Shown: in pieces, positions 4,973 through 35,283 of the stretch
How the letters are laid out: the number at the start of each line of letters is the position of its first letter
How positions within the stretch are numbered: the stretch's first letter is position 1
Source of the DNA: Victivallis sp. Marseille-Q1083
Lineage (GTDB): Bacteria > Verrucomicrobiota > Lentisphaeria > Victivallales > Victivallaceae
Assembly (NCBI RefSeq): GCF_903645315.1
Contig: NZ_CAHJXL010000001.1
Coordinates: 1,354,001-1,418,000 of the forward strand
Direction: 5' to 3'
Length of the DNA: 64,000 nucleotides
Notes under the pieces: generated by a model
Seen by the model: the letters and a program-made list of their open reading frames with translations, nothing else
Databases searched by the model: none
Told to the model about the DNA's origin: nothing
Translations under genes and position numbers: made by a program

Positions 4973-6305
4973 GTTGCAATCCACCCCCAAACGGAACTTG
5001 GGGTATTCCGCTATTCGCCACCGCCAAGCACCTGCCGGCTTCAACTCACCCCCAGGCGGGAACTGGGTGGTATTTAACACCAGAAAAGTCAAGGAGCAAC
5101 ATGTTTCAATTCACACCCAGGCGAGAACTGGGTGGATAAGATGTCCCCACCAGCATACAGCTTGACTGTTTCAATTCACACCCAGGCGAGAACTGGGTGT
5201 TCATGGCCGGGGTAGCGGGATTGTCGGTAGTGGTTTCAATTCACACCCAGGCGAGAACTGGGTGAAATTCGGCCGAAGTCGTCGGGAACCATTCCTTGTT
5301 TCAATTCACACCCAGGCGAGAACTGGGTGTGGAGCTGGAAATTACCGACATGACCACCGGAGTTTCAATTCACACCCAGGCGAGAACTGGGTGGATTTGG
5401 TTAATCGTAAAGTTGTGAGCGACAATGTTTCAATTCACACCCAGGCGAGAACTGGGTGGCTCGATCGGGTGTTGAAAACTCATTACAAAATGGTTTCAAT
5501 TCACACCCAGGCGAGAACTGGGTGTGGATAAACGGCCTTTGTTTACCAACTTTAACGGTTTCAATTCACACCCAGGCGAGAACTGGGTGTAATACCGTTG
5601 GTATTAGGCATTCTAGTAAAACAGTTTCAATTCACACCCAGGCGAGAACTGGGTGGCTATGAATGTATTTTGGTTTTTCGCCGGCGTCTGTTTCAATTCA
5701 CACCCAGGCGAGAACTGGGTGTGGCTGGAAGCGACCAGCCACCCGAAAAATCCCGATGTTTCAATTCACACCCAGGCGAGAACTGGGTGTTCGGGCCTTT
5801 GAATGGACGGTGCCGCTGATTGTTTCAATTCACACCCAGGCGAGAACTGGGTGTAGATTTCAACAATCTTTGACCATCCATTCGGAGTTTCAATTCACAC
5901 CCAGGCGAGAACTGGGTGTCCGAAGACAAGAACATTGATCCGACTGATGTTGTTTCAATTCACACCCAGGCGAGAACTGGGTGAAACGATTTAAATAATA
6001 GATGCGAACATCAAAGTTTCAATTCACACCCAGGCGAGAACTGGGTGAATCTTGGATATACCAATAGGCATACTGCATGGGTTTCAATTCACACCCAGGC
6101 GAGAACTGGGTGAAGATGGATAGCAATAACTTGTTTCTTTGTTCTGTTTCAATTCACACCCAGGCGAGAACTGGGTGAACAAACATGGGGAGGCGTTTAT
6201 AACCTATTTGTTTCAATTCACACCCAGGCGAGAACTGGGTGATATCCGAACTCGAAAGACATCAGGAGTTTATGTTTCAATTCACACCCAGGCGAGAACT
6301 GGGTG
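4973..6305 (-). CRISPR. Type I-C CRISPR array: 21 repeats (19 identical), 20 spacers
   Basis: The repeat is 32 nt. On the plus strand it begins GTTTCAATTCACACCC and ends GAGAACTGGGTG, so the transcribed minus strand ends ATTGAAAC, the usual I-C crRNA 5' handle. Nineteen identical copies start at 5103, 5168, 5233, 5298, 5362, 5427, 5493, 5558, 5624, 5690, 5758, 5822, 5887, 5952, 6016, 6081, 6146, 6210 and 6274. A copy with four mismatches starts at 5038, and a further one with about ten mismatches at 4973, both in register. Spacers are 32-36 nt, mostly 33. Decay at the low end marks the trailer. The leader lies at the high end beside cas2. Internal AGTTCTCGCC and CCTGGGTG segments allow the hairpin that Cas5c cleaves. 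Confidence 0.98.
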
Positions 6306-6429
6306 GCCAATATTATAACTCTTTCAGACTCAGTTATCAAACAACTCATTTCCGCGAATCACTCGAAAATTGAAAAAAGGAATGTAGATAAAATCAATAA
6401 AAGCATGTTATTTCCTTGATTGATAAAAG
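6306..6429 (-). other. CRISPR leader
   Basis: AT-rich sequence between the first repeat and the cas terminator. It holds the array promoter. Cas1-Cas2 is expected to add new spacers at its junction with the repeat at 6274-6305. Confidence 0.75.
6312..6340 (-). promoter_or_regulatory. Promoter of the CRISPR array
   Basis: On the minus strand TTGATA (6340-6335) and a perfect TATAAT (6317-6312) are separated by 17 bp. The -10 box ends 6 bp before the first repeat, so transcription should begin at or just inside that repeat. Confidence 0.75.
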
Positions 6430-6473
6430 GTGCGAAGCTCAGCTCAAACGTCCCGCTGACCTGAGCTTCGCAC
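6430..6473 (-). terminator. Terminator of the cas operon
   Basis: GTGCGAAGCTCAG at 6430-6442 is exactly complementary to CTGAGCTTCGCAC at 6461-6473, with an 18-nt loop. On the minus strand the stem starts 7 nt after the cas2 stop codon and is followed by CCTTTTAT. The T-run is short, so termination may be partial. Confidence 0.65.
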
Positions 6474-6480
6474 TCAAACA

Positions 6481-6774
6481 TTACAGCAATAAAGTATCTC
6501 GCCCCAGATCGACAATTGCTCTCACGCCAAAATGTTCCACTTTACCGGCCCATTTGGCACCCAAATTATAAATCCGCAAACTATCTTCTCCCATGTTTAT
6601 TTCTCTCAGCAATCTGGCTTTCAATTCCAGAAAACCGGCCCAATCGATTTCACACTCAAAAACAGAATTCTGTACTCGCAAACCGTAATCTTTGCAAAGC
6701 TTGGCGACCCGGCGCAAACGCCGCTTACCTCCTTCGCTGTTGACCGCGACATCATAACTGACGATTACCCGCAT
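6481..6774 (-). CDS. cas2: CRISPR-associated endonuclease Cas2
   Basis: A 97-residue protein that forms the centre of the Cas1-Cas2 integrase and bridges two Cas1 dimers during spacer acquisition. The first strand MRVIVSYDVA carries the conserved Asp at residue 8. The ferredoxin-like fold continues through RRVAKLCKDYGLRVQNSVFE, the usual type I-C form. It is the last cas gene, 6 bp after cas1, and ends just before the operon terminator. Full length and intact. Confidence 0.96.
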   Translation of the reverse strand: MRVIVSYDVAVNSEGGKRRLRRVAKLCKDYGLRVQNSVFECEIDWAGFLELKARLLREINMGEDSLRIYNLGAKWAGKVEHFGVRAIVDLGRDTLLL

Positions 6775-6780
6775 AATACC

Positions 6781-7806
6781 TCACTTCCAAATATAAGGAA
6801 CATACGCCTCCACTTCCCCGCGCAAATATTTGGCCAACAATCGCGCCTGAATCCAGAACAGCAAACCGACCGGAATTTTCTCTCCGATCACCGGATGTAC
6901 CACAATTTCCTGTTTGCGCTGCTGCCAGGCTGTCAAGAACTTTTTTCGGCCTTCGTCATTCAACCAGACTGCCCCGTTGCTCAAAACCTGAAAATCACCC
7001 GCACCAATCTGTTTCAGATTAATCAAAGACAAGCTGAGCCGGTCCCCCAGACAAGCACGATACTCTTCCAGCATATCCAACGCAAGACTTGCCCGGCCCG
7101 GACGATCACAATGCAGGAAACCGGAGGCCGGATCCAATCCGACCGATTCCAGTGCGCCGACCACTTCATTCAACAGAATTGTGTAGGCAAACGACAACAA
7201 GGCATTCACCCGATCCAGCGGCGGGCGCCGACTTCGGCCCTGAAATTGAAATTCATCGCTCTTGTTCAAGATCAAATGATCGAACACCCCAAAATAGACG
7301 TCGGCAGCCTTGCCTTCAATGCCGCGCATCACTTCAACCTCCGTGGCCTGCCGTAAGCCATCAATCAACTGGCTCAACTGACGAATCGCCAGTCTCACCG
7401 GCTGGTTCTCCGGCTCATGATCCCGACAAAAGCGCCGCAGGACCGCTCGAGTATTGGCCAATTTGCCGGCCAGCAGAAACATAGTCATTCGCGCGGCACC
7501 TTCCACCGTGTCGGCCACCCGGTATTGCGCCCGCCGCAATAACACATTGCCGCTCACTGGCCCTTGAACCCGCGCTAGAAAATGGCCGTTTTCATCGCAA
7601 AAGGCAATCGAGACTTCATTTTCTGCACAAAAATGCATCAGATATGGGGAGCAGGCAACCCGGCCAAACACAACAATCCCCTTCAGATTATGGATCGGAA
7701 ACCGACCAGCCTCCTTCCCATCAATCTGTACGGCTACCGCCTGTCCGTCTTTATTTAGGTAAGCCCCTTGCGTGGTCACATATAAAACATTCTGCAGTTT
7801 TCTCAT
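6781..7806 (-). CDS. cas1: CRISPR-associated integrase Cas1 (type I-C)
   Basis: The 341-residue catalytic subunit that inserts new spacers at the leader-repeat junction. The N-terminal beta domain begins MRKLQNVLYVTTQGAYL. The C-terminal helical domain has the metal ligands: Glu in MRGIEGKAA, His in GFLHCDRPGRASLAL and the following Asp. The ATG at 7806 overlaps the cas4 stop codon as ATGA. A longer frame to 7950 would run back through cas4 and is rejected. All catalytic residues appear intact, so adaptation should be possible. This matters for the insertion seen in cas8c. Confidence 0.96.
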   Translation of the reverse strand: MRKLQNVLYVTTQGAYLNKDGQAVAVQIDGKEAGRFPIHNLKGIVVFGRVACSPYLMHFCAENEVSIAFCDENGHFLARVQGPVSGNVLLRRAQYRVADTVEGAARMTMFLLAGKLANTRAVLRRFCRDHEPENQPVRLAIRQLSQLIDGLRQATEVEVMRGIEGKAADVYFGVFDHLILNKSDEFQFQGRSRRPPLDRVNALLSFAYTILLNEVVGALESVGLDPASGFLHCDRPGRASLALDMLEEYRACLGDRLSLSLINLKQIGAGDFQVLSNGAVWLNDEGRKKFLTAWQQRKQEIVVHPVIGEKIPVGLLFWIQARLLAKYLRGEVEAYVPYIWK

Positions 7807-8435
7807 TCCAACGCCTCCTCGAATTGTTTCCAACTTGAAACATCTTCCTTTCGGATGGGCAAGCAGTAATCCGCCACCGAGCAGGCGGCACATTTTCGGC
7901 GCTGGTAGACTGCCGGTGGAGAAATTTTCTCGATAATCAATTGATGGCAAGCCATCACGTTCTCCAGTGTCAACTGCCGCAACGGCCCGTCAATCTTCAC
8001 TTCCACCCGCTCACGTGTTTCAAAATAAAATAGAAAAGCACGTTCGATCGCTCGATTCATCATTTCTTCCAGACAAAGCGCCTGTGCACACAACTGCACT
8101 TCATCACAGCGTTCCGTTTTCGGTTTCCCCCGCTTATATTCAATCGGATAAACTTCGGAAACCTTTCCTTTGACGATGAATTCAACCGCATCAGCCCGGC
8201 CGGTCAACCCCAAGCGTCTGGAACACAATGGCAGCGAATATTCCACCCGGCGACGGCCGCCAGACCGCACGCCGGGTAAATCGACCCGACAGTGAAGTAC
8301 CTTACCTGACATCGTGAAAAAATTCTCACTCCAATATTGCTCCAATTCCAAGATAGCAAACTGGCGCGAGCAGAACAAATAATGCTGCAAACGTGAAATC
8401 AGCAACCATTCTTCTTCCGGGTATTCCATCTCCAT
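7803..8435 (-). CDS. cas4: CRISPR-associated exonuclease Cas4
   Basis: A 210-residue RecB-family nuclease with an iron-sulfur cluster. In type I-C it trims prespacers and fixes PAM selection with Cas1-Cas2. Visible features are the N-terminal Cys in HYLFCSRQFAILELEQ, the acidic residue in GLTGRADAVEF, the EYKRGKPK motif, and the C-terminal cluster CAACSVADYC. The ATG at 8435 follows AAAGGA; a second ATG lies two codons in. A TTG at 8456 directly after the cas7 stop is also possible. The 3' end overlaps cas1 by 4 bp. Confidence 0.94.
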   Translation of the reverse strand: MEMEYPEEEWLLISRLQHYLFCSRQFAILELEQYWSENFFTMSGKVLHCRVDLPGVRSGGRRRVEYSLPLCSRRLGLTGRADAVEFIVKGKVSEVYPIEYKRGKPKTERCDEVQLCAQALCLEEMMNRAIERAFLFYFETRERVEVKIDGPLRQLTLENVMACHQLIIEKISPPAVYQRRKCAACSVADYCLPIRKEDVSSWKQFEEALE

Positions 8436-8456
8436 CGGTTCCTTTCGGAGCGGCAA

Positions 8457-9332
8457 TCAAAGTTTTTCGATTATTTCCACCCGGTCCGGACAAGCGCCAC
8501 GATCGATTTCCACCCGATAGTCGGCAAAAGACCGTGGCGGCAATTCGCTTGATCCGGCTTGTTCAATTTTCACCAGATCGAACAATTTCCAGGCCGGCGC
8601 GTCGCCCAGCGGATCGGCGTGTTTGAAAACGATCAACTTGCGCGTCGACATCACACCGCGTGCCGCCGAACGGTCATATTCGAACATGTTCATCAACGCC
8701 TGCCAGAACAGTTCGAGGTCCTTCCCGCAAAATCCGGTCTGCTTCGCCAGTTGCGGCGAAACGAACCCTTTGGCGACATACAATCCATATGGAACGGTGT
8801 ATTTCCGGCCCATCGTACGGTTGTCGCCTTTCTGCTTGACGGCCTCTTTCTCCGTCGCCACCGCCATCCGGGTAATGCTGTGTTCCAGTGTCACCACCGG
8901 CTCCACCGAACGGGCGAAAGTCAACTGCACCGGTCCGCGTACTTGTCCGGCATTCTCGCCGGTACTCATCACCGCACCGAAGGTACGGATGTCATAATAA
9001 TTCCGGCACATCCACTGCCGGGCGGTTTCCGTCCGCCTGCCGTCATCTTTTGCATTGACGGCCTTCACTTCCTCCGAAGCGAAAGCCCGGCTGATCTCAT
9101 CGTTGAGAATCGCCTTTTCCTTGATGAAAATATCAAATCCGTCCGCCAGTTCTTTGACCAGTTGCACATAATTGCGCACCTTACGCTTCAGACAGACATC
9201 GGTCACCAATCCGAAGCCGGTTTCAGCATCAACCCGAGGCAGATTGCCGGCATCCGGATCGCCGTTCGGATTACCGTCCTGAACATCGAAAACAATCATG
9301 AAATCATAACGGTTATTCAAAGCGTCGCTCAT
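8457..9332 (-). CDS. cas7: Cascade backbone subunit Cas7 (Csd2)
   Basis: A 291-residue subunit that polymerises along the crRNA in the type I-C Cascade. The sequence opens with the signature RYDFMIVFDVQDGNPNGDPDAGN-like region (residues 8-30), where DGNPNGDPD is typical of Csd2. Further matches are RTFGAVMSTGENAGQVRGPVQ and the later KYTVPYGLYVAKGFV. Length is normal for the family. It lies 40 bp after cas8c, with an AAGGAATG Shine-Dalgarno stretch near the start. Confidence 0.95.
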   Translation of the reverse strand: MSDALNNRYDFMIVFDVQDGNPNGDPDAGNLPRVDAETGFGLVTDVCLKRKVRNYVQLVKELADGFDIFIKEKAILNDEISRAFASEEVKAVNAKDDGRRTETARQWMCRNYYDIRTFGAVMSTGENAGQVRGPVQLTFARSVEPVVTLEHSITRMAVATEKEAVKQKGDNRTMGRKYTVPYGLYVAKGFVSPQLAKQTGFCGKDLELFWQALMNMFEYDRSAARGVMSTRKLIVFKHADPLGDAPAWKLFDLVKIEQAGSSELPPRSFADYRVEIDRGACPDRVEIIEKL

Positions 9333-9372: not shown

Positions 9373-11190
9373 TTACTGCTGCGTCTTGTCCGCATTAGCC
9401 GTAAACAAATCCTTCATTTGATGATAATAGCCGATACTGAAACGGCCTTGATCTCTCAATGTCAAATGAGCCGGAAAATCATTGATTTTATCAATGATCT
9501 CTTCCAACAGTCCTTTAAAATTGATTTGCCGATCTATCGACAATTTATCCAGATGATGCCCATTCAATGCCAACAATCGGCCAAACACCACACTCGGAGT
9601 TGTCGAGGCGGCACCGTAATAGCGGTCGCGAACCGTCGCGTTGATGCCCGGCTGTGCTTCTCCTTGGCATTTTTCCAACACGGCAAACAATCGGCCGCAT
9701 AGATAACCGCTGTTGCCATTTTCCCGATCCAGTCCCATTTTTATCTCCTTTCCGTGATCTTCCGACAATTTCCGGTTCAAATACGCCTTCAAAATCGCCG
9801 CCCGGGATGCTGTAATTTCCCGGGTGGCGCGGATTCGCCGCAAACACTGCTGAAACAGGGCATCCGGATAAGGTTTTCCCTCCAGCACCGCCGACAGCGT
9901 CGCGGCGGTCAGCGGCTCAGCAACATTTTTCATTTTACAATCCAATGCCGTGGCAGCTAACAGTGACGTCAGTGATGAATAGGGATAATCGCGGGGACTT
10001 CTGACGATGATCTTCGGGTGCGCTGTAATTCTGATCGATGAAGATGAATAGGGATAATCGCGGGGACTTCTGACGATGGCCAAGTCCTCGAAATGCCGAC
10101 AAAGATTCCGGGCAAATTCCTGTACTGTTCCTACCTTCCAGCACCGGACCGCAATCCGCGTTATATTCGGAGAAAGGCTCAAAAAATAAAACTGCGTTTC
10201 CTGCCCCTCCGGTCGCCGTCCGGTATAGACAGACTTCATAAACGACTGGACTAGTTCAGTCTGGCGATCCGGGTTGTCTTTGCTATTCTGCACCATCAGC
10301 CGTATCAGTTCGTCCAACTCTTCGGCCGCCGGATTTTCCTCCGCCGCCCAGAACACCGTGGTGACGCCACCGAGAGAAAATTTATTCTCCGATCCTTTGG
10401 CCAACAACGTATTAAGCGCCGTCGAACAGGCGAATTCCGCCATCTGGCCGATTGGCGCATTGAAACACTGCTCTCTTCCATAGGAATCATAACCGCTGTT
10501 TTTCTGAAAACTGACCAATGCAGCATTACTTTTGCCGCCGGGAACCGGCGTCGCCTTGAACAAACGAGCCAGCGGGCCGTAAGTGCCGGTAACCAAACAG
10601 CGACCGGATACGCTGCCGCCCGCCTTCTCCTCCGACCTTCCCACGGCTGTCGCGGTCACATAATCCTGCACCGCCGGCCGCTCCGCCACCAGCTCCCCGT
10701 TCCGCAATTGAAAGGAGAGGTTACAACCGGAAATCGCACAGCAATCCGTCCACAACGGATCTTGCTTCACTTTTTCCAGCTCACCCCGCCGGTAGAACTC
10801 CAATACCGCATGGACCCCGGCATCCTGCCGCACCTCCTCCGGCAAATTTTGGAGCTGCTCAACGAAGCGGCCGTGCTGCAAGCGTGCCATCTCCAGGTTT
10901 TTCGCCGCCTCTTCCGCCGTTTTCGCCGCTTTCGGCTGGCCGAGCACATAACCATAATGATCCCACAACAGATAGGCGGTCTGCCAACTGCTTCTGCCGG
11001 TGCGGCCAATTCCCTGTGGCAACCTGTAAAACCGGCCGAATTTCTTTGTCTCATCCCGGAGGTCGAACAATCCGAAAAAGGTGCCGTCCTCCTCCAGAAC
11101 GATCAGAAATTTCAATTCCTTATGCTCGAAACCGGGCCTCGGCAGATTGTCGCGCCGCCGATAATATTCATATAAGGCCTGCAGAATCAT
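9373..11190 (-). CDS. cas8c: Cascade large subunit Cas8c (Csd1), carrying a 23-residue insertion
   Basis: A 605-residue large subunit that recognises the PAM and recruits Cas3 in type I-C. It matches Csd1 from end to end: the N-terminal MILQALYEYYRR, the central GGKSNAALVSFQKNSGYDSYG, and the C-terminal YLCGRLFAVLEKCQGEAQPG with YYGAASTTPSVVFGRLL. At residues about 371-406 the segment VRSPRDYPYSS occurs twice, separated by SIRITAHPKII. Removing one 23-residue unit restores the normal Csd1 path DLAIVRSPRDYPYSSLTSLL. The reading frame is kept. The 5' end overlaps cas5 by 4 bp (ATGA). The subunit may still work if the insertion sits in a loop; this cannot be decided from sequence. Confidence 0.95.
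   Translation of the reverse strand: MILQALYEYYRRRDNLPRPGFEHKELKFLIVLEEDGTFFGLFDLRDETKKFGRFYRLPQGIGRTGRSSWQTAYLLWDHYGYVLGQPKAAKTAEEAAKNLEMARLQHGRFVEQLQNLPEEVRQDAGVHAVLEFYRRGELEKVKQDPLWTDCCAISGCNLSFQLRNGELVAERPAVQDYVTATAVGRSEEKAGGSVSGRCLVTGTYGPLARLFKATPVPGGKSNAALVSFQKNSGYDSYGREQCFNAPIGQMAEFACSTALNTLLAKGSENKFSLGGVTTVFWAAEENPAAEELDELIRLMVQNSKDNPDRQTELVQSFMKSVYTGRRPEGQETQFYFLSLSPNITRIAVRCWKVGTVQEFARNLCRHFEDLAIVRSPRDYPYSSSSIRITAHPKIIVRSPRDYPYSSLTSLLAATALDCKMKNVAEPLTAATLSAVLEGKPYPDALFQQCLRRIRATREITASRAAILKAYLNRKLSEDHGKEIKMGLDRENGNSGYLCGRLFAVLEKCQGEAQPGINATVRDRYYGAASTTPSVVFGRLLALNGHHLDKLSIDRQINFKGLLEEIIDKINDFPAHLTLRDQGRFSIGYYHQMKDLFTANADKTQQ
9974..10078 (-). repeat. 36-bp exact direct repeats around a 33-bp unique segment, inside cas8c
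   Basis: Copies lie at 9974-10009 and 10043-10078. They are identical over 36 bp, starting GATGAATAGGGATAATCG and ending GACTTCTGACGATG on the plus strand. The 33 bp at 10010-10042 is unrelated to either copy. The period of 69 bp is a whole number of codons. Native CRISPR units in this window are 64-68 bp. Confidence 0.95.
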
Positions 11191-11879
11191 CTCAGTACCT
11201 CCGGCGAATCCTCCTCCGGCACTGTAATCACTCCAGCCATCAATTTCGGTCGGTAGAACATCGACTTCGGCCGGACCGGGTCGCTGAAATCCAGATCGTA
11301 AAGCATATAACCCAAATCCCGGTTTTCCGCAATCGGCGGCATCACAGCCCGGTCCGCCGCCAGTTCCGCCGGTTCAAGCAGTTGGAAATTGGCGGCAAAT
11401 TCCCGGCATCCCAGATACGGCTGATGAAACGTCTGCCCTTTGGCCGCCCGCCGGACGAACATCTCGAAATACTTTTGCGGTGTTTCCGGGCCGTTGTCCG
11501 CCAGCGGAGCGTCGTTACTTCGAACATTCGGCGGCAGAAATTCCAGTTCGGCAAACAACCGATAAGCGACATCGCGCAGGCACATCCCGGCCCGCTGCTG
11601 GCGGCGCTTTTCGATAAAGATCTCCTTCGTTGCTTTCGATGCCACCGCGTCAACTTCATTGCGCCGGACGGAAAACCAGCAGATCGCCTTCAATACCTCA
11701 ATCCGCCGGATGTGCCAACGGACCGCCGGCTTCCAGAAAACCGCCGAGAAAATCGCCCTGGCCGCCGACGGCGTGATTACATCGTAACTCACCCGTTCAA
11801 CTTTCAGCTCCGGCCGGGTAAAACAGGCGTAGTCCCCCCATACTTTCAAACAAAACTCCCGCCTTGGATATTCGCTCAA
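11187..11879 (-). CDS. cas5: crRNA-processing Cascade subunit Cas5c (Csd5)
   Basis: A 230-residue RAMP protein. In type I-C, Cas5 replaces Cas6: it cuts the repeat hairpin and holds the crRNA 5' handle. The start EFCLKVWGDYACFTRPELKVERVSYDVITPSAARAIF-type region (residues 8-44) is the family hallmark, including TPSAARAIF. The C-terminus YMLYDLDF followed by PKSMFYRPKLMAGVI also fits. The ATG follows an AAGGAGG. Overlap with cas8c is 4 bp. No cas6 is present in the window, in line with this role. Confidence 0.95.
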   Translation of the reverse strand: MSEYPRREFCLKVWGDYACFTRPELKVERVSYDVITPSAARAIFSAVFWKPAVRWHIRRIEVLKAICWFSVRRNEVDAVASKATKEIFIEKRRQQRAGMCLRDVAYRLFAELEFLPPNVRSNDAPLADNGPETPQKYFEMFVRRAAKGQTFHQPYLGCREFAANFQLLEPAELAADRAVMPPIAENRDLGYMLYDLDFSDPVRPKSMFYRPKLMAGVITVPEEDSPEVLR

Positions 11880-11913: not shown

Positions 11914-14064
11914 TTATGCCATCAGCAATTCATCATTGCCGAGCTCCACACCAACGCCTTCCCGATACCAGTTCGGCGTATTCTGCACATAAACGCCGAA
12001 CAATTCCGCCACCCGGCCGACCTCCAGCTCCCACTCCAGCCGTTTTTTCGGAACGTTCACCGTATACGGCTGCATGGCCCGGAACCGTTCGCGACTCGGC
12101 CCCTTCTCCCGCAACTCCTGAATCAACCCAGCACCCTCCCGGTAAGCCGTCACCACCGGCACTTGCCAGGCATCATCGATCAAATGAAAGTCCAAAGCAA
12201 AATCATGAAAACTGAAATACAAACTTTTACTCTCTTCCACCAACCGCTTGTTGAATTTCGCTTTATCGAAATCCCGTAAGTCTTTAAACTTACAGCAGCA
12301 GTGATAGAACTTTTCAAAATATTCCCGAAAATACTGCGGCGTCAGCGTGAAGTCAGCCGGCAACTGTTTGGCCACCTCGACGCCATGGGAAATCGTACCG
12401 GTCGGCAATCTGTTTTCCGATTCAAACAGAATGACCCGGCCATACTCCAATTTTCCTTCCCGGTTGCAACGGCCGGCCGCCTGCGCCAGCGAATCCAGAC
12501 CGGCCCATTCCCGACAAACAACCGGAAAATCAAAATCAACGCCGGCTTCAACCACTTGGGTCGCCACAACGACGACCGGCCTGTCACCGGCTAAGTCCGC
12601 CCTGATCCGCGCCAGACAACAGCTGCGGTCGACCGGACACATCGCCGCCGACAGATGATATTTGTTTTCACTGTGCAGGGCATGAAACAACTCCCGGCAG
12701 CCGGCTTTGGTATTGACGATGCACAGTGCCTGCCGCTCGTTATCCAGACGGGCCGCCAGTGCGTCCCGGGACAGCCGACCCGTCCGTTCTAGGCGAACCC
12801 GGCATAACTCCGACGCCCATTTTTCCGGGTCACTGATCAGCGGATAGACCGACGACACCCCTGGACAACAGCATTCTGAAGGGCCGATCCATTCCGCCTC
12901 TAGAGACGGCAGAGTTGCCGAGCACAACACCACACTGCAACCGAAATGCTTCACCAACATGCGCAGGACGCTCAAAATCGGCCGCAGATGATCCGGCGGT
13001 AACATCTGCACTTCATCCAGGATGACCACGCTGCGGGCGATATTGTGCACTTTCCGCACCTGAGAAGCATTGGCGCCCAACAAAGATTCCAGCAATTGTA
13101 CATTGGTAGTGACGACAATCGGCATATCCCAATTTTCCACCGCTAACTCTCTTTGCGCCGACAGTTCCGTTTTTTTGTCGTCGTCGAAAGGGATGAAGTC
13201 GGCATGGTGTTCCAGTACGTTTACCGCACCGAAAATCTTCCGGTAAATTGCCGCCGTCTGTTCGATGATCGAACAATACGGAATCGCCATGATCACCCGA
13301 TCCAGACCGAATTTCCGCCGATGCCGAAGCGCAAATGCCATTGAGGCCAACGTCTTGCCACCACCGGTCGGCACATTCAGCGAAAAAAAGCCCGGTTGCC
13401 GCTCCGCGTTTTGAAGAACCTCCGCCAATATCGCCCGCCGGGAAGCGTTGACCGAAGTAACGACGGCCTCTTGCTGCAATCCCGTCAGGTAGGCATCGAA
13501 TTTCTCTTCCAATTGTTCAAAAGATTCATACTGCCGGCGGAACGCCGTCTTCGCCGGTTCGACCGCCGCCTCGGCATTCAGCCGGTCGGCGTCGACCAAG
13601 GCCGAGAACAACATCCGAATCCAGAGATGGTAAGATTCCGGATCGGGCAGGAATGCACTGAACTCGTTGAGCAACGCCTTTTTCCCAACGGCAAAATCGA
13701 CGCTCGGCATCCATTCGATGCAGCCGTCCGGAATGACTTGCTTTCCCTTCCAATGATCAAGTCCGGCCGTATAATTCGGCAAATGGGTATGATGTCCGGC
13801 GATGGCATAAGCGGCAACCAACCCTAAATTTCCATACCGATACCAATATTCCGCCGCCGATTCATAAGCATGGTTCTCTCTGCCAACTGACGTCAACAAA
13901 TATTGCTGCCAACGCGGATCATATTTTCGCCAGTCATGTCCTTCGCCAATCCAGCCGCCCCAGGCCGGACAACCGAATTTGGCGGCGAATCCGGCGGCCA
14001 ACGCGCTGACACCCGAGAGATGCGCATGCATGGTCTGACCATGCCGCGCCATTGCCTTTCCCAT
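11914..14064 (-). CDS. cas3: CRISPR-associated helicase/nuclease Cas3
   Basis: A 716-residue effector recruited by Cascade to unwind and degrade target DNA. The N-terminal HD nuclease shows His13/His15, the HD pair in EGHDWRKYDPRWQ (residues 43-44) and HHTH at 91-94. The helicase begins with Walker A VPTGGGKT at 231-238. Walker B is ILDEVQ around 348-353, motif III is SATLPS, and motif VI is AAGRCNREG. All core residues appear present. GGAGGG lies 6 nt before the ATG. It is the first gene of the cas operon, and an upstream AT-rich stretch of about 110 bp holds a weak promoter. Confidence 0.95.
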   Translation of the reverse strand: MGKAMARHGQTMHAHLSGVSALAAGFAAKFGCPAWGGWIGEGHDWRKYDPRWQQYLLTSVGRENHAYESAAEYWYRYGNLGLVAAYAIAGHHTHLPNYTAGLDHWKGKQVIPDGCIEWMPSVDFAVGKKALLNEFSAFLPDPESYHLWIRMLFSALVDADRLNAEAAVEPAKTAFRRQYESFEQLEEKFDAYLTGLQQEAVVTSVNASRRAILAEVLQNAERQPGFFSLNVPTGGGKTLASMAFALRHRRKFGLDRVIMAIPYCSIIEQTAAIYRKIFGAVNVLEHHADFIPFDDDKKTELSAQRELAVENWDMPIVVTTNVQLLESLLGANASQVRKVHNIARSVVILDEVQMLPPDHLRPILSVLRMLVKHFGCSVVLCSATLPSLEAEWIGPSECCCPGVSSVYPLISDPEKWASELCRVRLERTGRLSRDALAARLDNERQALCIVNTKAGCRELFHALHSENKYHLSAAMCPVDRSCCLARIRADLAGDRPVVVVATQVVEAGVDFDFPVVCREWAGLDSLAQAAGRCNREGKLEYGRVILFESENRLPTGTISHGVEVAKQLPADFTLTPQYFREYFEKFYHCCCKFKDLRDFDKAKFNKRLVEESKSLYFSFHDFALDFHLIDDAWQVPVVTAYREGAGLIQELREKGPSRERFRAMQPYTVNVPKKRLEWELEVGRVAELFGVYVQNTPNWYREGVGVELGNDELLMA

Positions 14065-35198: not shown

Positions 35199-35218
35199 TA
35201 TTTAGATATTTTTTTATC
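35199..35218. repeat. 20-bp direct repeat, copy 1 (downstream of rex promoter)
   Basis: TATTTAGATATTTTTTTATC, identical to the copy at 35264-35283. It overlaps the expected start of the rex transcript. Candidate regulator site, possibly for Rex itself; it does not match the usual TTGTGA-type Rex operator. Confidence 0.6.
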
Positions 35219-35232
35219 AAATTTAAAACGCT

Positions 35233-35260
35233 AATATAACACCCGAGCAAAAATTTTCAA
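35233..35260 (-). promoter_or_regulatory. Promoter of the rex-hydrogenase operon
   Basis: On the minus strand TTGAAA (35260-35255) and TATATT (35238-35233) are separated by 16 bp. One 20-bp repeat lies 3 bp upstream of the -35 box; the other begins 14 bp downstream of the -10 box. Confidence 0.65.
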
Positions 35261-35263
35261 CGC

Positions 35264-35283
35264 TATTTAGATATTTTTTTATC
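35264..35283. repeat. 20-bp direct repeat, copy 2 (upstream of rex promoter)
   Basis: Exact copy of 35199-35218, 65 bp apart start to start. An imperfect relative on the opposite strand (GATAGAATTTTTTCA-like) lies near 34487-34507, upstream of hndA. Confidence 0.6.

Follow-up and report, generated by a model that had tools for sequence, protein, structure and literature searches.

The type I-C locus and the unit in cas8c

The window analyzed here, a stretch of 64,000 nucleotides from Victivallis sp. Marseille-Q1083, contains a complete type I-C CRISPR-Cas locus in the order cas3-cas5-cas8c-cas7-cas4-cas1-cas2-array, with the genes on the minus strand (Table 1). The adaptation genes cas1, cas2 and cas4 are encoded intact beside the site of an insertion in cas8c. 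The array holds 18 spacers of 32 nt (5 spacers), 33 nt (9), 34 nt (3) or 36 nt (1) between its 19 repeats; this count bears out the native unit given in the initial annotation, a 32-nt repeat plus a spacer of 32-36 nt, most commonly 33 nt. In type I-C systems Cas11c arises from an internal start within cas8c, and solved Cas11 chains matched residues 486-602 of the window's cas8c product, with the insertion lying upstream of that part.

Table 1. Features of the type I-C locus in the window and of the second gene carrying a spaced duplication
Feature	Position	Strand	Remarks
cas3	11914..14064	-	
cas5c	11187..11879	-	
cas8c/csd1	9373..11190	-	605 aa, carries the insertion; TIGR01863 at 455 bits (cut-off 219)
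Edge resembling the leader/repeat junction, TTGGC/CATCG	10074..10083	-	agrees with the native I-C junction TTGGC/CACCC at 8 of 10 bases
Copy 1 of the duplicated 36 bp (gene order)	10043..10078	-	
Insert of 33 bp	10010..10042	-	spacer-sized, single-copy, source not found
Copy 2 of the duplicated 36 bp (gene order)	9974..10009	-	
Putative Cas11c part of cas8c	9373..9738	-	begins at an internal ATG (9736-9738); lies downstream of the insertion; match to solved Cas11 chains
cas7/csd2	8457..9332	-	
cas4	7803..8456	-	
cas1, type I-C	6781..7950	-	listed ORF start is the longest possible
cas2	6481..6774	-	
Leader region between cas2 and the array	6306..6480	-	
I-C CRISPR array	5103..6305	- (read from minus strand)	19 exact 32-nt repeats, leader side at high coordinate
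cas1 ORF of genome G220 (G220:C35)	L105 592-1695	minus	

The unit within cas8c is real and consists, as originally described, of two exact 36-bp copies around 33 bp of other sequence (period 69) inside the Csd1 gene, the 69 extra bp amounting to 23 codons and keeping the reading frame. The bases flanking the copies differ, so that 36 bp is the maximal exact length. Each copy both starts and ends with CATC, however, and the true target duplication could thus lie anywhere between 32 bp (with a 37-bp insert) and 36 bp (with a 33-bp insert). Taken at its exact length, the insert equals the modal native spacer (9/18), and the duplication exceeds the I-C repeat by 4 bp (36 vs 32). The initial annotation noted that chance identity at the edges could explain this excess, which is possible, but comes at a cost of about 1 in 64 and calls for an insert of 37 nt, a length that none of the 18 native spacers has. 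A duplication of exactly 32 bp was seen neither in the window's unit nor in that of genome G220 (see below).

We aligned 42 Csd1 homologues (34 loci from the genome search, one related locus and 7 plasmid records), of which L014 and L082 are identical, leaving 41 distinct sequences. In all 42 homologues, the HFEDL and LL motifs are joined by a loop that spans 10-21 residues (median 14), compared to 36 in the window, and the 23 codons are missing from every row of this protein-level comparison, whose rows include no same-species genome. The suggestion that the 23 residues are unique among Csd1 homologues was thereby upheld for these 42 rows. The extra residues are likewise absent from the alignment with the closest solved homologue, 8g9u chain H. 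In another genome (G212:C224:2690-4430) the Csd1 frame appears broken in the loop region that matches the window's insertion place.

A search for exact repeats (20 bp or longer, at a distance of 15-120) covered 1,246,992 bases, comprising the window, with its own array masked, and 60 further stretches (~26% of the 4.82-Mb genome). Among isolated exact repeats of at least 30 bp at a distance of up to 120, the cas8c unit alone was left after exclusion of the CRISPR array on L130, the tRNA clusters on L019, L021, L032 and L035 (confirmed with ARAGORN) and repeats in L024 and L145 that were judged by eye to be of low complexity or satellites. The unit, searched for as a 136-bp sequence, is single-copy in the 4.82-Mb genome. 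Two other kinds of repeat were recorded during this work: satellite-like CAACTTTCAACTTTC repeats with exact copies of 27-74 bp at L145:5808-6031 and L145:10534-10607 of the same genome, and an AT-rich 20-bp exact direct repeat (period 65) at 35199-35283 of the window, outside any array found.

The insert and the edge of the duplication

No second place for the 33-mer was found in the 4.82-Mb genome with up to 3 mismatches, nor for its pieces as a 23-mer (up to 3 mismatches) or a 20-mer (up to 2), and the 37-mer form was absent from 386 other genomes searched in the phylum (up to 3 mismatches). BLASTN with the insert plus 5 bases on each side gave best E-values of 0.7 in phages and 2 in plasmids. 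A phage or plasmid protospacer with a PAM, for which the initial annotation suggested a search, was found in none of the viral contigs, phages and plasmids. Exact scans of viral contigs with the insert or its pieces returned a single match of 21 nt (L126:2026-2046, minus), which covers the 3' part of the insert and lies in an 887-aa protein with tail-family matches. The odds of such a match arising by chance are perhaps ~2%, for an assumed size of the collection, and the match covers 21 of the 33 nt, the remaining 12 nt of the insert agreeing at 0/12. A degenerate 9-residue scan for the source found nothing. We rejected this phage tail gene as the source and kept it as a weak lead. The proposal that the segment was captured from an ATPase gene, based on the Walker-B-like reading IFGCAVILIDE, was given no weight and rejected, this being one of 4 open frames among the 6 in the 33-mer. 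An insertion sequence or a repeated mobile element does not fit the size of the insert (33 bp) and its single copy.

The duplicated cas8c segment showed no significant similarity to the I-C repeat, and it folds at -2.4 kcal/mol (z -0.7) compared to -10.7 kcal/mol (z -3.3) for the native repeat. Without the repeat hairpin, a working neo-CRISPR or functional I-C unit is ruled out, and the sequence would be a by-product that should not be processed as CRISPR.

The genome encodes three CRISPR-Cas systems, namely the I-C locus, a type II locus and a third, Cas3-containing locus. The type II locus lies beside the Cas3-containing one, the two being found on L130:10976-16208 and L167. The type II locus, which we read as II-C from its gene content, encodes a 1026-aa Cas9, Cas1 and Cas2, and its 13 repeats, each of 36 nt and one carrying a mismatch, are separated by spacers of 29-31 nt. 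Past its array end, at L130:16304-16335, there is a degenerate version of this repeat that is possibly the tracrRNA anti-repeat. The third locus, with Cas3 and a long array of 28-nt repeats (period 61), we read as I-E from its encoded proteins, the family test covering Cas3 only.

When the edges of the cas8c unit were compared with the leader-repeat junctions of these systems, the upstream edge in cas8c, GGACTTGGC/CATCG, agreed with AATATTGGC/CACCC, the I-C junction, at 8 of 10 positions over -5 to +5, on the expected strand and in the expected orientation (the stroke marks the boundary between leader and repeat). Matches of at least 8/10 occur at a background of 5.3e-4 of positions (1.24 Mb, both strands). 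The two sequences have 7 contiguous bases in common (TTGGC/CA), and runs of at least 7 occur at 382 of 925,060 positions (4.1e-4). Eight exact-edge comparisons were made (4 junctions of the 3 CRISPR systems on 2 strands), and the corrected probability of the match is ~0.004 for these 8 tests or ~0.04 for the 72 tests that include 9 edge shifts. The other seven comparisons gave 4/10 or less, and 5/10 at best with shifts. The match was spotted after the sequence had been seen, but ahead of the literature on it.

Over the longer interval of -20 to +32, the likeness between the cas8c site and the leader plus repeat was not significant (P 0.28), and cas8c has two further 8/10 junction-like sites in the sense and one in the antisense direction. 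An array is present in 40 of 54 related loci, where the last leader bases vary and where the leaders tend, by eye, toward a common GTTATAAT-like motif further up that the cas8c site does not have. PMC6895254 describes type II-A off-target sites as mimicking ~5 bp each of leader and repeat; Cas1 contacts lie at -4 to -1 and +1 to +2, and a ruler element in the repeat sets the second cut. According to the same paper, type I systems depend on IHF and similar host factors. By analogy, we infer that the II-A junction rule may apply to the I-C enzyme.

A second unit in a type I-C cas1 gene

Regions around I-C genes in 68 other genomes were surveyed, on 69 contigs and with a union of 996,227 bases; the cas-like part, matched by tblastn with the window's Cas proteins, comprised 420,377 bases, and the search loci were scanned too. 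One clear further unit emerged from the 68 genomes, in G220, a member of the same class (L105:606-711). It consists of 37+32+37 bp, again with a period of 69 and in frame, and sits at the 3' end of a I-C cas1 gene, whose product has a C-terminus that reads RHLRGDLDAYPPSLVRHIRASAD/RHLRGDLDAYPPFLLK. Among 28 other Cas1 proteins, the C-terminus is intact in 27, none of which has the duplication, and is cut by the contig in one.

Two native repeats are present on the G220 contig, 65 bp apart, and can be read as 32 or 33 bp long with a spacer of 33 or 32 bp. The exact duplication of 37 bp thus exceeds the repeat by 4-5 bp. Common to both units are an insert that fits the native spacers and an exact duplication ~4 bp over the repeat (36 vs 32; 37 vs 32-33), although chance edge identity could make the true duplication shorter than the exact one in either unit. 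The G220 insert has no second place within G220 and no exact 22-nt match in viral contigs, its best E-value in phages is 0.6, and neither a protospacer nor a PAM was found in any of these three. The upstream edge GGCCC/GTCAC agrees with the genome's own junction ATACC/GTCGC at 6/10 (background 0.018-0.025), which is weak when taken alone. The G220 target folds at -11.2 kcal/mol, with a z of only -1.7.

With both units counted, there are 2 in ~428 kb of I-C cas DNA and 0 in ~1.8 Mb of other DNA (~0.04); if the index case is left aside, the comparison is between 1 unit in 420 kb of cas-like DNA and 0 in ~1.8 Mb (~0.19), which is not significant. The zero in other DNA depends on satellites set aside by hand, including one of similar size on L088 (45+33), and the enrichment of units in I-C cas DNA is suggestive only. 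Because the scans dropped repeats having another within 400 bases, units near arrays or satellites would be missed. Set aside by eye as intergenic satellites were L090:4318 (29+36) and L088:1927, while L188:3766 (26+36) was discarded as repetitive, L255:3729 as a simple repeat, and the two-copy ends of native arrays likewise. Two further isolated spaced repeats, L172:8136 (26+43) and L238:3071 (25+46), were also put aside. The set-aside spaced repeats lie outside cas-like DNA, in a test that did not include L238.

Proposed off-target integration and its rivals

On balance, we favor the explanation that the I-C Cas1-Cas2 machinery of the cell itself, together with Cas4, inserted a spacer-sized fragment into cas8c. 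A loaded integrase would have taken the cas8c sequence GACTTGGC/CATCG for a leader-repeat junction and carried out the first strand transfer there; as no native repeat fixed the spacing there, the second transfer would have taken place ~36 bp downstream rather than 32, and gap repair would have copied the 36 bp onto both sides of the 33-bp insert. The product keeps the reading frame, contains no stop and lies upstream of the Cas11c part in a loop whose length varies, so that the cell probably tolerated the protein and the allele would have survived. The chance that a random 33-mer is in frame and stop-free is ~0.19. The off-target Cas1-Cas2 integration put forward in the initial annotation gains from the I-C-specific junction match, from the failure to find a donor in the genome and from the G220 unit, but no source or PAM came to light, and the event itself is still one that we infer. 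Its weak points are the duplication that is not of repeat length, the lack of a protospacer or PAM, the weak G220 junction and the number of cases, two.

A less probable account is an error of replication or repair, in which the 36-bp duplication and a 33-bp filler arose by template switching or by the joining of a break with widely staggered nicks, and in which the CRISPR-like sizes are coincidental. The CATC at both ends of both copies is microhomology that slippage could use, and the genome does contain spaced duplications of other sizes, such as one of 21 bp (period 33) at L145:513. The insert's CATCGATCAGAA also resembles the copy start CATCGTCAGAAG, with a shuffle P of 0.02 for mononucleotides and 0.07-0.11 for dinucleotides; with the latter not significant, and with the G220 insert and copy not significantly alike in any test (P 0.14 or more), we rejected the idea that the insert is a degenerate form of the segment that was duplicated. 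Against such an error stand also the failure to find a template for the filler in the genome and the lack of any similar unit in 1.247 Mb of the same genome. Moreover, it predicts neither the leader-repeat match nor a 69-bp period in a second I-C cas gene.

It is very improbable that the integrase of the same genome's type II system, rather than that of I-C, was responsible. Its Cas9, Cas1 and Cas2 genes are present and its repeat length equals the 36-bp duplication exactly, but its junctions match the cas8c edges at 4/10 or less at the exact edge (5/10 with shifts), its spacers of 29-31 nt are shorter than the 33-nt insert, and we rejected the unit as a type II product on these grounds. The type II locus is, in addition, ~0.19 Mb distant, and the same geometry recurs in a I-C gene of G220, a genome covered around its I-C genes and not for type II. 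An artefact of assembly or sequencing is more improbable still: assemblies can err at 69-bp near-tandem units, but the reading frame remains open, an independent genome (G220) has a similar unit, and a misjoined repeat does not account for the insert, of which the genome has no other copy.

Off-target integration by I-C Cas1-Cas2 would have several relatives among known reactions. In E. coli, non-canonical integration by Cas1-Cas2 places spacer-sized fragments outside the array (Nivala et al. 2018, as cited in the excerpted texts of PMC9456107 and PMC11788318), and the cas8c case is similar in that a fragment lies outside the array at a site resembling the natural docking site. The E. coli case, as summarized there, involved overexpressed Cas1-Cas2, whereas the cas8c case is natural, of type I-C, located in cas genes and marked by an exact duplication longer than the repeat. 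The S. thermophilus type II-A Cas1-Cas2 likewise uses sites that mimic the leader-repeat junction over about -5 to +5, but in the excerpts of PMC6895254 those products were made in vitro, were probably half-site and belong to another subtype, whereas the cas8c unit would be a full-site product in a genome. Ectopic acquisition within arrays, as outlined in part of PMC8047081, resembles the cas8c case in that integration occurs away from the leader-proximal repeat; its target is still an array repeat, whereas here the target is coding sequence. In the available part of this literature, the known instances of off-target Cas1-Cas2 integration come from test tubes and from overexpression, and among the titles and abstracts listed in a search of part of the literature, none describes natural off-target units within cas genes.

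More tentatively, I-C complexes may now and then insert spacers at mimics of the leader-repeat junction within their own cas operons, with a stagger ~4 bp over the repeat; the in-frame 69-bp units that result would alter Cas proteins, namely Cas8c in the window and the Cas1 C-terminus in G220; CRISPR-Cas would thus be self-mutating through its own integrase. Flanked as they are by direct repeats, such units could delete again. If the units are natural fossils of this kind, they would constitute new evidence for a known side reaction, showing that off-target integration takes place in evolution, which sites it uses and how wide its stagger is. The origin of new CRISPR loci and a possible role of the integrase as a mutagen of its host would then become testable, and the two units of period 69 offer a concrete signature that can be searched for.
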